In this document: positions 960 to 4,777 of the stretch, piece after piece
Numbering within the stretch: the first letter of the stretch is position 1
Layout of the letters: each line of letters starts with the position of its first letter
Assembly (NCBI GenBank): GCA_002869065.1
Contig: PKTR01000007.1
Span: forward strand, 124,001 to 188,000
From: Hyphomicrobiales bacterium
GTDB taxonomy: Bacteria > Pseudomonadota > Alphaproteobacteria > Rhizobiales > Rhodobiaceae
Length of the DNA: 64,000 nucleotides
Direction: 5' to 3'
Made by a program: the position numbers and the translations under genes
The notes under the pieces: model-generated
Told to the model about the DNA's origin: nothing
Seen by the model: the letters and a program-made list of their open reading frames with translations, nothing else
Database searches by the model: none

Positions 960-1508
960 TCAGTCGTCGCTGCCGGTCCCGAAAGCCTGGCTGAGCCGGC
1001 CGAGCTGCGCGGCAACCGGATTGACCGCTTCGCCGCTCGTGGTCGCGTCCTGGCCCTCGTAGATGCCCGAGTCGAGCACCCGGATACGGTCCTGCAGCCG
1101 CGACGAGCGCATGACCAGATCCTTCAGGCTCTGAGGCAGCTCTTCCCAACCGGCGCCGTCCTGCGCGCTCGCAAGCTTGTCGAGGCGGATCTTGGATTTC
1201 TCCTGGCTCGCCTGCTCCAGCGTCATCTCGCCTTCATTGACCGCGCGCTGCAAGAGAAGCCAGGACGCAAGCTGCATCAGCCGCGTCGTCAGCCTCATCG
1301 ACTCCGTCGCATAAGTCAGCGAGGCTGCCCGCGACAGGCCCTTGGACTCCTCGCGGCCCTCACCGTCGAGATAGGCAGCCGTCTCTTCGACAAGCCCCAT
1401 CCCTTCCCGAAACAGGGACATGAAGGCTTCCGATGCCGCCAGCCGGTCCGCGAGGCGGATGGCTGAAGCTTCTGTCACCGGGTCGGTTTGCTTCGTGTTG
1501 TCACTCAT
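960..1508 (-). CDS. rcdA: DUF1465 family protein, RcdA-like regulator of CtrA degradation
   Basis: A 182-residue, mainly helical acidic protein with no membrane segment. The central part (RAASLTYATESMRLTTRLMQ and WLLLQRAVNEGEMTLEQA) matches the three-helix core of the DUF1465 family, whose studied member is Caulobacter RcdA. In that system RcdA is a ClpXP adaptor that works with CpdR and PopA to deliver CtrA and other proteins for degradation at the G1-S transition. The length is close to that of RcdA, and the acidic C-terminus (FGTGSDD) resembles the disordered tail of family members. The family assignment comes from my memory of conserved residues. The cell-cycle role in this organism is inferred from the family. 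Confidence 0.75.
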   Translation of the reverse strand: MSDNTKQTDPVTEASAIRLADRLAASEAFMSLFREGMGLVEETAAYLDGEGREESKGLSRAASLTYATESMRLTTRLMQLASWLLLQRAVNEGEMTLEQASQEKSKIRLDKLASAQDGAGWEELPQSLKDLVMRSSRLQDRIRVLDSGIYEGQDATTSGEAVNPVAAQLGRLSQAFGTGSDD

Positions 1509-1680: not shown

Positions 1681-1790
1681 AAAAAAAGAGCCGCGCGAAG
1701 CGGCTCTCAGGAGTTAACAGGGAGGCGTCAAACAGAGTGGACAGGAGCCACTCAAGATCCAGATGACTGGATGTGTTTAGTAATAAGTTG
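1681..1790 (-). ncRNA. Candidate trans-acting small RNA with three anti-Shine-Dalgarno motifs
   Basis: The 484-base gap between rcdA and the DUF1192 gene contains a compact structured stretch that reads on the minus strand. Hairpin 1 pairs ATCCAG/CTGGAT (1757-1762 with 1767-1772). Hairpin 2 pairs GAGTGG/CCACTC (1735-1740 with 1748-1753) and shows CUCCU in its loop. An unpaired stretch follows with CCUCCC (1725-1720) and CUCCU (1713-1709). The last element is a GC-rich hairpin with a seven-U tail. This hairpin, C/U-rich loop and terminator layout is typical of alphaproteobacterial sRNAs that bind ribosome binding sites. The 5' end is a guess. It could instead be the 3' UTR of the DUF1192 mRNA, whose stop codon is about 200 bases upstream. 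Confidence 0.5.
1682..1707 (-). terminator. Rho-independent terminator (minus strand)
   Basis: GAGCCGC (1688-1694) pairs with GCGGCTC (1700-1706) around a GCGAA/TTCGC loop. On the minus strand it is followed by seven T residues (complement of 1681-1687). The plus strand has no T-run, so the direction is clear. Confidence 0.8.
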
Positions 1791-1796
1791 GAAAGC

Positions 1797-1820
1797 TTAA
1801 CAAAGCGTTAATTTGGTTAA
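1797..1820. promoter_or_regulatory. CtrA-like TTAA half-site cluster
   Basis: Three TTAA half-sites occur in 24 bases: 1797-1800, 1808-1811 (7-base spacer) and 1817-1820 (5-base spacer). The CtrA consensus is TTAA-N7-TTAAC. The first pair has the right spacing but T or G in place of the final C. The cluster sits just upstream of the candidate small RNA on the minus strand. The flanking 1770-1900 region is AT-rich, so chance occurrence is a real possibility. Confidence 0.35.
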
Positions 1821-1992: not shown

Positions 1993-2187
1993 CTAGCTCT
2001 TGAAAAAGGCATCCGCCGCCGAGCGCGACTTTTCCTTGCCCGCGATTTCGCGCTCCACCCGCTCGATCTCGTCGCGCAACAGTGCCAACCGATCCTCGAG
2101 CTCGGCCACCGAGAGCTGCGACAGGTCCTGCCCGACCTCATGCGTCACCGGCCGCTTCACCGGCCTGTCATCATCGAATAGTGCCAT
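1993..2187 (-). CDS. DUF1192 family small coiled-coil protein
   Basis: A 64-residue acidic protein starting MALFDDDRPVKRPVTHEVGQ, then a single charged helix (LSQLSVAELEDRLALLRDEI) and ending ADAFFKS. This matches DUF1192, a short alphaproteobacterial family of unknown function. The helix has heptad-like leucines and probably forms a coiled coil. I took the ATG at 2187 because conservation begins at MALFDDD. The longer in-frame reading adds a basic, non-conserved stretch. It is divergent from the quinone oxidoreductase gene, with about 160 bases between them. Confidence 0.8.
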   Translation of the reverse strand: MALFDDDRPVKRPVTHEVGQDLSQLSVAELEDRLALLRDEIERVEREIAGKEKSRSAADAFFKS

Positions 2188-2345: not shown

Positions 2346-3353
2346 ATGACCGGTGCCACCCCTGAAACCATGATCGCGATCGGCATCAGCGAACCCGGCG
2401 GCCCGCAGGTCCTCGTGCCGGAGAACCGCCCGGTGCCGCACGCCTATGAAGGCGAGATCCTGATCAAGGTCGCCGCCGCCGGCATCAACAGACCCGATGT
2501 GCTGCAGCGCCAGGGCCTCTATCCGCCGCCGAAAGGCGCTTCCGACATTCCAGGGCTCGAGGTGGCCGGCGAGGTCGTCGCACTCGGTCGCGGCGTCGAC
2601 CGCTGGCAGGTCGGCGACCAGGTCTGCGCCCTCGTCACCGGTGGCGGCTACGGCGAATACTGCGTCGCCAACGAGGCTGCGACGCTGCCCGTCCCGGAAG
2701 GCCTGTCGATGGTCGAGGCCGCTGCCCTGCCGGAAACCTTCTTCACCGTGTGGTCGAACGTCTTCATGCGCGGCGGCCTGAAGCTCAACGAGACCTTCCT
2801 CGTCCACGGCGGCACGTCGGGCATCGGCACCACCGCCATCCAGCTCGCCAAGGCGTTTGGCGCCACCGTGCTCGCCACCGCCGGCAGCGAGGAGAAGTGT
2901 GAGAAATGCCGTGAACTCGGCGCCGATCACGCCATCAACTACCTGACCACCGATTTCGTCGACGCGGTGAAGTCGGCCACCGGCGGCCACGGCGCCGATG
3001 TCATCCTCGACATGGTTGGCGGCGACTACATCGAGCGCAACTACTCGGCCGCGGCCATCGAGGGCCGCATCGTTCAGATCGCCTTCCTCAACGGATCGAG
3101 CGCCGAGGTCGATTTCCGCCGCCTCATGCTGAAGCGCCTGACCCATACCGGCTCGACGCTGCGCGCCCGCGAGATCCCGTTCAAGGCCTCCGTTGCTGCG
3201 GCTTTGAAGCAGAAGGTCTGGCCGCTGATCGAAGCCGGCAAGGTCCGCCCGGTGATCGACTCGACCTACCCGCTTGCCGACGCCGCTGCCGGCCACGCGC
3301 GGATGGATTCCGGCAAGCACATCGGCAAGATCGTACTCACCGTCGGAACCTGA
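2346..3353 (+). CDS. NAD(P)H-quinone oxidoreductase, PIG3/zeta-crystallin family
   Basis: A 335-residue medium-chain dehydrogenase/reductase without the structural zinc lobe. The N-terminal GroES-like domain carries GINRPDVLQRQGLYPPPKGA and IPGLEVAGEVVALG. The Rossmann domain has VHGGTSGIGTTAIQLAKAFG, the AxxGxxG-like nucleotide-binding signature. These are hallmarks of the TP53I3/PIG3 and QOR group, which reduces quinones with NADPH. The length is normal for the family. A GGAAGGA site precedes the ATG at 2346. The physiological substrate is not evident from the context. Confidence 0.9.
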   Translation: MTGATPETMIAIGISEPGGPQVLVPENRPVPHAYEGEILIKVAAAGINRPDVLQRQGLYPPPKGASDIPGLEVAGEVVALGRGVDRWQVGDQVCALVTGGGYGEYCVANEAATLPVPEGLSMVEAAALPETFFTVWSNVFMRGGLKLNETFLVHGGTSGIGTTAIQLAKAFGATVLATAGSEEKCEKCRELGADHAINYLTTDFVDAVKSATGGHGADVILDMVGGDYIERNYSAAAIEGRIVQIAFLNGSSAEVDFRRLMLKRLTHTGSTLRAREIPFKASVAAALKQKVWPLIEAGKVRPVIDSTYPLADAAAGHARMDSGKHIGKIVLTVGT

Positions 3354-3507: not shown

Positions 3508-3609
3508 ATCAGCAGAAAGTGTGCCCCGCGGCCGGAAATACGTCCGGCAGCGAACGGAGGGGCTTTGCCAAATCAAAGTCGAAAGCAACGCAACCAAGGA
3601 ACGCCAATC

Positions 3610-3831
3610 ATGACTGCAGCAACACTGACCGAACGCCTTCCGCTCATCGGCTGGAGCGTCCGCGGCCTGCGTACCGGCAAGACCGAGTCGCAAGTCCTCT
3701 TTGCCATCAACTGCTTCCTCGCCTGGATGTTCGCCATCGCCTATTTCGGCTACCCGGCATTCTTCGGCGCGGTTCTCCTTTCGGTGCCGGTGATGTTCGC
3801 AATCATCATCCGCATCACGCTCGGCAAATAG
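3610..3831 (+). CDS. Small two-helix membrane protein downstream of a FixK box
   Basis: A 73-residue protein with a polar N-terminus (MTAATLTERLPLIGWSVRGL) and two hydrophobic segments, about residues 28-47 (QVLFAINCFLAWMFAIAYFG) and 48-70. It ends in a short basic tail. I do not recognise the family. The ATG at 3610 has AAGGA about 10 bases upstream; an in-frame TTG at 3565 is less likely. It stands alone between a FixK-type operator and a strong terminator, so it appears to be a monocistronic, oxygen-controlled gene. It could be an accessory subunit of a respiratory complex or another small stress protein. That is inference from the operator only. Confidence 0.7.
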   Translation: MTAATLTERLPLIGWSVRGLRTGKTESQVLFAINCFLAWMFAIAYFGYPAFFGAVLLSVPVMFAIIIRITLGK

Positions 3832-3905: not shown

Positions 3906-3937
3906 ACCCCGGCAAAGCAACCTGCCGGGGTCTTTTG
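3906..3937 (+). terminator. Rho-independent terminator after the small membrane protein
   Basis: ACCCCGGCA (3906-3914) pairs with TGCCGGGGT (3923-3931), followed by TCTTTT. Confidence 0.85.
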
Positions 3938-4069
3938 TCGGCAACACTGCATGGTGAATTGCAAAACCGCCGATTCGCCCCTATATTCCTGCCATTCCCA
4001 GTCAGATTTGACGAATTTGCAGCTTCGCCCGGGAACCGAGCGGCGAAGCGCAGTGGAGGAGTTATTGCA

Positions 4070-4777
4070 ATGGCGAACACGCCCCTGATGCCGAAGGCAA
4101 CGGCCGTCTGGTTGGTCGACAACACAGCGCTGAGCTTCGATCAGATCGCCGCTTTTTGCAGACTTCACCCGCTTGAGGTGAAGGCGATTGCCGACGGCGA
4201 CGCCGCGCAGGGCATCAAGGGTCTCGACCCGGTTCAGACCGGTCAGCTGACCCGCGAGGAAATCGAGAAGGCGCAGAAGAACCCGGCGCACAAGCTGTCG
4301 CTGGCCGACCCGAAGGTTCGCGTGCCGGAATCGCGTCGCCGCGGTCCCCGCTACACGCCGGTGTCGCGCCGCCAGGACCGCCCGAACGCCATTCTCTGGC
4401 TGCTGCGCAACCATCCCGAGTTGAAGGACAGCCAGATCATGCGCCTCGTCGGCACCACCAAGCCGACGATCCAGTCGATCCGCGAACGCACCCACTGGAA
4501 CGCCGCCAATCTGACGCCGACCGATCCGGTCGCGCTTGGCCTGTGCAGCCAGATCGAACTCGACCTCGAAGTCGAGAAGGCGTCGAAGAACCTGCCGCGT
4601 CCGATGGAAGGTGCGACCCTGCTGTCGGTCGACGAGTCGACCGCGCCGGATCCGTTCGCGATGATCCCGGGCTCGACCGTCGAGGAAGAGCCGGAAGAAG
4701 AAGAGCTCGACGCCGCACTTGTGTTCGCCAAGCTGAACGCCATGAAGGACGAGACGCCGGAGGAAGACGAGGAGTAA
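4070..4777 (+). CDS. trcR: Cell cycle transcriptional regulator TrcR (DUF1013)
   Basis: A 235-residue protein starting MANTPLMPKATAVWLVDNTA. It is conserved through VKAIADGDAAQGIKGLDPVQ and a basic segment (RVPESRRRGPRYTPVSRRQD). A helix-turn-helix-like stretch follows (HPELKDSQIMRLVGTTKPTI), then a very acidic C-terminal tail. This is the DUF1013 family, annotated in Alphaproteobacteria as TrcR. The central HTH suggests DNA binding. A GGAGGA site lies 9 bases before the ATG at 4070. It is monocistronic with its own terminator. The cell-cycle role is family annotation, not visible in the sequence. Confidence 0.85.
   Translation: MANTPLMPKATAVWLVDNTALSFDQIAAFCRLHPLEVKAIADGDAAQGIKGLDPVQTGQLTREEIEKAQKNPAHKLSLADPKVRVPESRRRGPRYTPVSRRQDRPNAILWLLRNHPELKDSQIMRLVGTTKPTIQSIRERTHWNAANLTPTDPVALGLCSQIELDLEVEKASKNLPRPMEGATLLSVDESTAPDPFAMIPGSTVEEEPEEEELDAALVFAKLNAMKDETPEEDEE

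Follow-up and report, generated by a model that had tools for sequence, protein, structure and literature searches.

The minus strand of a 64,000-nucleotide stretch of DNA from a Hyphomicrobiales bacterium (the window; contig PKTR01000007.1, 124,001 to 188,000) carries between 1681 and 1821 an element which, by covariance score, is a member of a catalogued small RNA family, BjrC1505 (RF02356), and not a new RNA. The Rfam covariance model was matched over its full length (1-140) with 106.4 bits and E 1.4e-19, the gathering score being 50 bits, and the genome of the strain held one copy. The candidate sRNA of the initial annotation was thus a real sRNA gene but not a novel one. Added here to BjrC1505 are a CtrA box, a linkage to rcdA, a wider range and an apparent promoter inside the 5' part of the Rfam model. 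The explanation that we consider likely as a whole is that of a BjrC1505 sRNA which has its own CtrA-dependent promoter and acts on its targets through anti-Shine-Dalgarno pairing.

In the study of Bradyrhizobium japonicum sRNAs from which the name BjrC1505 originates (Madhugiri 2012), expression was reportedly verified by Northern blot. This naming study is cited in a review (PMC7143759). No description of a function of BjrC1505 was found in a full-text literature search, in which the name occurred only in an unrelated table.

Structure and covariation

The sRNA gene was placed at 1681-1774 (minus strand) within the Rfam match. Its minimum free energy was -34.4 kcal/mol, compared with -20.1 +/- 3.1 in dinucleotide shuffles (z -4.7; 0 of 200 shuffles as low). 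The two hairpins, the C/U motifs, the terminator with seven U residues and the TTAA half-sites that had been pointed out earlier were all confirmed in their places. Hairpin 1 (AUCCAG-UCAU-CUGGAU, 1772-1757) and hairpin 2 (GAGUGG-CUCCUGU-CCACUC, 1753-1735) are followed by a near-invariant core with a weak third hairpin (1731-1714), by a further CUCCU (1713-1709) and, judging from sequence and fold, by an intrinsic terminator (1708-1681), of which the GC-rich hairpin with a 9-bp stem occupies 1708-1686 and the seven U residues 1687-1681. The CCUCCC at 1725-1720, which had been described as unpaired, was predicted to be the loop of the weak third hairpin (UUGACG/UGUUAA).

Pairs were counted on the named structure in 74 sequences. 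Changes on both sides were found in 6/6 pairs of hairpin 1, 4/6 pairs of hairpin 2 and five of the seven aligned pairs of the terminator; hairpin 3 hardly varied and covariation was uninformative there. Cells with changes on both sides numbered 67 compared with 11.8 in shuffles, a difference whose significance is overstated because the sequences share kinship, and 94.8% of cells were able to pair, compared with 38-47% when the partners were slid. With RNAalifold on the full alignment hairpin 1 alone was recovered, for which the truncation of several rows within the terminator is a possible cause. Of the 134 dereplicated loci, 132 had a run of at least 5 T after the core. In most loci there is a start codon from which the reading frame continues past the end of the sRNA; the covariation and the indels in the linkers argue for an RNA rather than a small ORF.

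The sequence GACGCCUCCCUGU was near-invariant across the family, and the columns GACG-CTCC-TGT were invariant in the 74-row alignment of diverse sequences. CCTCCC was present in all 134 dereplicated loci and in 45 of the 49 sequences of the covariance-model set; as one set of loci was fetched with the exact core pattern, the invariance of the core is to be read from the latter. The CTCCT in the first anti-Shine-Dalgarno loop, that of hairpin 2, was less general (88/134 and 25/49), and the third CTCCT was lineage-specific (11/134 and 3/49). Of the conservation expected in relatives, compensatory changes in the stems were therefore found, but not invariant CUCCU motifs, only CCUCCC being near-invariant. 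All three motifs of the triple anti-Shine-Dalgarno arrangement exist in this strain; in these alignments the triple form is confined to this strain and some relatives and does not characterise the family, and the claim shrinks to one near-invariant seed.

CtrA box and promoter

TTAA half-sites are located at 1820-1817, 1811-1808 and 1800-1797. The last two, at 7-base spacing, form an exact CtrA box TTAACGCTTTGTTAA (TTAA-N7-TTAA, 1797-1811, minus strand) where a -35 element would lie, and the upstream half-site, read in the sequence of this strain, is separated from the box by 5 bases. Exact TTAAC-N6-TTAA sites, of which the box is one, number about 20 in the genome of 4.04 Mb. A putative -10 element, TATTAC (1780-1785, minus strand; TATGAC or TTTAC in relatives), recurs between the CtrA box and hairpin 1, and from its position transcription is predicted to start at 1771-1775. 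Since the 140-nt Rfam model begins upstream of this predicted start, its 5' part appears to cover the promoter rather than the transcript.

The box was examined across the family in a scan window of 60 bases (-105 to -45 from the core). TTAA-N7-TTAA at 7/8 positions or better was detected in 132 of the 134 loci, compared with 13 in shuffles, in a set dereplicated by k-mer overlap without a tree, in which related genera remain. Exact boxes (8/8) were found in 53 of these loci compared with 1.4 in shuffles. The 7-base spacing was preferred, as other TTAA spacings reached at most 58 loci, and in other neighbouring windows the motif was present in 0-14 loci. The usual form is TTAAC or TTTAC followed by TTAAG and, in many loci, CTTTC and TATTAC or TATGAC are found before hairpin 1. 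The proposed link to CtrA, formerly drawn from half-sites in one strain, is strengthened by this conserved promoter box at the -35 position, which is what would be expected of a CtrA-regulated sRNA.

In CtrA promoters, a box at -35 without a separate -35 element is the layout expected for activation. We infer from the site that CtrA binds at 1797-1811 and propose, because the box occupies the -35 position, that it activates the promoter; the RNA would in that case track phosphorylated CtrA through the cell cycle, a step which we regard as quite probable. CtrA might instead repress the sRNA, whose presence would then mark the CtrA-low phase. The position of a box alone is no proof of activation, as a site over a promoter can also block it, and the extra TTAA at 1820-1817 is in keeping with repression; with the box at the -35 position and no separate -35 element to be seen, this is nevertheless unlikely. 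A function in the cell cycle is suggested by the box and by the identity of the neighbouring gene, and is of the same conditional kind.

Genomic context, range and independence of the gene

The downstream neighbour (960-1508, minus strand) carries the DUF1465 domain (PF07323, E 1.4e-58), and its earlier naming as rcdA was borne out by the NCBIfam RcdA equivalog NF051867 (E 2.5e-67). Upstream lies a DUF1192 gene (1993-2181, minus strand; PF06698, E 3.8e-24), and a divergent quinone-oxidoreductase-like gene, qor (2346-3353, plus strand; Pfam ADH_N and ADH_zinc_N), belongs to the conserved neighbourhood by synteny. A second cell-cycle gene is found nearby at 3935-4774 (plus strand; Pfam TrcR, PF06242, E 2.7e-67). 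An 87-aa ORF at 3568-3831 (plus strand) had no match in Pfam or NCBIfam.

BjrC1505 was matched at E<=0.001 in 51 of 61 relatives, all of the same order, and by the Rfam model in 25 of the 240 genomes of a class-wide sample. A home-built model (74 sequences) matched 69/289 genomes, many of the matches being weak; among the stronger ones, most have a CtrA-like box and some of the DUF1192/rcdA/qor neighbours. Outside the order the family was found in a minority of genomes, near rcdA and/or DUF1192/qor. Carriers include Bradyrhizobium, Devosia, Stappia, Roseibium, Mesorhizobium, Phyllobacterium, Brucella endophytica and Parvibaculum. The core had no BLAST match in PLSDB. One Mesorhizobium locus (L117:2872-3008, minus strand) came close to the threshold of the Brucella sRNA family BASRCI27 (57.5 bits, gathering score 59.8).

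In 142 of the 143 loci where rcdA was found (core with 0-1 mismatch), rcdA follows downstream, on the same strand, and the sRNA sits between DUF1192 and rcdA, on their strand, with 125-401 nt from the core to the rcdA start; in 7 further loci rcdA was not matched although there was room for it. The sole exception is a Bradyrhizobium sp. MAG (CP_BM_RX_45, L090:1500-1680), in which the cassette of box, RNA and terminator is inverted as a unit, with DUF1192 and rcdA on either side unchanged in order and strand; this is a single MAG, and an assembly effect is possible. Some genomes have extra, more diverged sRNA copies elsewhere (L334, L335 and L336, in G001:C14, G025:C439 and G018:C3). In the first of these, from the genus of the window, hairpins 1 and 2 are almost unchanged and the stretch examined holds no TTAA box. 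The spacer between terminator and rcdA has conserved blocks of its own, GCTGGACTC ... GCAATGATTTGTTCATCATAA (28 loci, Bradyrhizobium and near relatives), which are compatible with a separate promoter of rcdA. The second block (for example in L003, L062 and L135) is strongly conserved and partly palindromic, possibly an rcdA promoter or operator.

These arrangements bear on two other origins of the RNA. The element could be the 5' leader of rcdA, with a CtrA-driven transcript that stops at the terminator or reads through it and the hairpins as an attenuator. Its position upstream of rcdA on the same strand, at this distance in nearly all loci, agrees with such a leader, as do CtrA binding upstream of S. 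meliloti rcdA (PMC4433202) and the several rcdA start sites in agrobacteria (PMC10469942). The inverted cassette, the terminator U run in all but two of the 134 loci, the promoter-like element between terminator and rcdA in Bradyrhizobium, the sRNA copies elsewhere and the unchanged rcdA expression on CtrA depletion in S. meliloti (PMC4433202) all speak against it, and we hold it to be improbable. Processing from the 3' end of the DUF1192 mRNA is more improbable still: the RNA does lie directly downstream of DUF1192 on its strand in most loci, and SorX, which shares the common 3' module, is a 3' UTR product (PMC6238624), but a conserved CtrA box and a -10-like element stand directly before hairpin 1, and in the inverted cassette the RNA is oriented opposite to DUF1192.

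The rcdA-linked position, the inversion and the conserved terminator thus support an independent gene and not a 3' UTR or rcdA leader; together with the covarying stems, the promoter box and the stray copies, they uphold the view of the initial annotation that this is an independent regulator. Very probably transcription starts at a promoter of the gene itself, located between DUF1192 and rcdA, and stops at its own terminator to give an RNA of about 94 nt; the sRNA most likely acts in trans.

The copy in Sinorhizobium meliloti

In S. meliloti Ak57 (CP090106, filed as pSymB, 3.7 Mb) the order DUF1192, diverged sRNA copy, rcdA was found. The copy was matched by home-built model R1 with 31 bits and E 1.3e-6, and gave no Rfam match at E<=0.1; its core is cut down to CUCCCUGUUUUACCUUGA. 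Two TTAA-N7-TTAA boxes flank it (L492:2671-2685 and 2845-2859): TTAACCGCAAATTAA precedes the RNA, at its promoter, and TTAACCCTTTCTTAA stands in the spacer to rcdA. The rcdA-bearing records of the plasmid collection, CP090106.1 (3.7 Mb) and NZ_CP069303.1 (4.6 Mb), look like chromosomes filed as plasmids.

By ChIP-seq, CtrA was located at the promoter region of rcdA in S. meliloti, and rcdA was unchanged on CtrA depletion (PMC4433202). The sRNA copy offers one explanation of a CtrA peak without a response of rcdA. As the second box is nearer to rcdA, assignment of the peak depends on the position of its summit. The copy makes this puzzle, CtrA upstream of an rcdA that does not respond to depletion (PMC4433202), a testable one.

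Proposed seed and candidate targets

A search of the genome of the strain for the complement of the 17-nt core, allowing up to 3 mismatches, returned the gene itself and no other site, so a single long near-perfect target is not indicated. The proposed seed is CCUCCCUGU, in the loop of the core, and start codons preceded by its complement were collected from 41 genomes (ACAGGGAGG-N3-10-ATG), with GAAGGGAGG as the one control motif. The sets comprised 101 non-redundant ORFs (100 aa or longer) and 60 control ORFs, both being samples of the pattern matches in listing order. Solute-binding proteins, classed from N-termini and Pfam, partly by eye and not blind, made up 34 of the 101 ORFs after ACAGGGAGG and 6 of the 60 after GAAGGGAGG (Fisher p 6.5e-4). 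The Pfam families in the former set were DctP (7), Peripla_BP_6 (6), SBP_bac_5 (4), NMT1 (4) and others (2-3 each); solute-binding families did not dominate the control set. In three genomes without a match to the family, solute-binding proteins were 0/9 after ACAGGGAGG, these being tiny numbers. The pattern also fits other C/U-rich sRNAs (AbcR, NfeR1, MmgR and SorX/SorY types), and the enrichment is therefore not assignable to BjrC1505. It is suggestive as a lead from sequence patterns and does not define a regulon; the target evidence, which is weak, favours mRNAs of solute-binding proteins over those of the cell cycle.

Pairing of the CCUCCCUGU loop with Shine-Dalgarno regions, which would lower translation, is the mode of action that we moderately favour, and in many species the CUCCUGU loop of hairpin 2 may help. 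The near-invariance spans the loop and the weak stem, beyond the need of a short seed, and this might indicate a sponge for another RNA, or a protein-binding RNA, in place of such pairing. That the invariant loop is a plain anti-Shine-Dalgarno sequence, and that genes with its exact complement at the start codon are enriched in one functional class, makes either of these unlikely. Under Shine-Dalgarno pairing, the main targets could tentatively be mRNAs of periplasmic solute-binding proteins, with the RNA trimming nutrient uptake in the CtrA-high phase.

The sRNA may in this way connect nutrient uptake with the cell cycle. An sRNA with a CtrA box, retained in so many genomes and with hardly an exception next to a gene of CtrA proteolysis, would fit naturally into the CtrA circuit as an output arm. 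The most far-reaching reading, that in most of the Hyphomicrobiales a CtrA-switched sRNA beside rcdA silences solute-binding-protein mRNAs through CCUCCCUGU and so ties uptake to cell-cycle phase, the CtrA peak at S. meliloti rcdA being at least in part that of the sRNA, is a speculative one that we would not expect to hold in full.

Comparison with known sRNAs

In S. meliloti two sRNAs tied to the cell cycle have been named, EcpR1 and GspR (review PMC7143759). EcpR1, alpha-r14/NfeR1, MmgR and PmaR were ruled out as identities of the window RNA by motif, locus, score or stated range. EcpR1 (SmelC291) has the loop motif UCCGCCGCAUCU and lies beside divK-pleD (PMC4414408); it resembles the window RNA in being a conserved Rhizobiales sRNA tied to the cell cycle and differs in this loop and location, neither UCCGCCGCAUCU nor a divK-pleD neighbourhood being present at the window locus. 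Alpha-r14/NfeR1 of Sinorhizobium likewise presents several anti-Shine-Dalgarno motifs in hairpin loops, and transporter mRNAs are among its predicted and tested targets (PMC10746234). Alpha-r14, however, has three identical CCUCCUCCC motifs and is under NtrC and LsrB control, whereas the window RNA has one near-invariant CCUCCC and a CtrA box; CCUCCUCCC is absent from 1681-1774, where the loops read CUCCUGU and CCUCCC. MmgR/suhB (RF00519) shares a CCUCCCU segment before the terminator, and its model gave 18 bits with the window RNA, below the gathering score of 41.

SorX and SorY of Rhodobacter have in common with the window RNA a 3' half resembling CCUCCCUGUUGGACUU plus a terminator. The TRAP transporter gene takP is under the control of SorY (PMC9670543, PMC6238624), and SorX is a 3' UTR product (PMC6238624), unlike the window RNA with its own promoter box. 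At E<=1 the window was matched by neither the SorX nor the SorY model of Rfam, and a search for the SorY family across the class gave sub-threshold matches only. Relatives of the window RNA (L031, L034 and L036) scored 22-32 bits with these models, below the gathering scores of 46.6 and 111; for L034 and L036, from outside the order, the weak matches to both SorX and SorY concerned the 3' half (26-32 bits). These likenesses in sequence suggest that CCUCCCUGUUG-ACUU plus terminator is a module common to alphaproteobacterial sRNAs.

CcnA of Caulobacter is a non-coding RNA that has a C-rich loop and is preceded by a promoter with a CtrA box; it is encoded at the replication origin, and a homologue in S. 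meliloti was not clearly detected by its authors (PMC8959179). The promoter box and the C-rich loop are shared with the window RNA, and the location at the origin, by description, sets CcnA apart. With BjrC1505 itself (RF02356) the window RNA shares the core, the hairpins and the terminator, with no structural difference.
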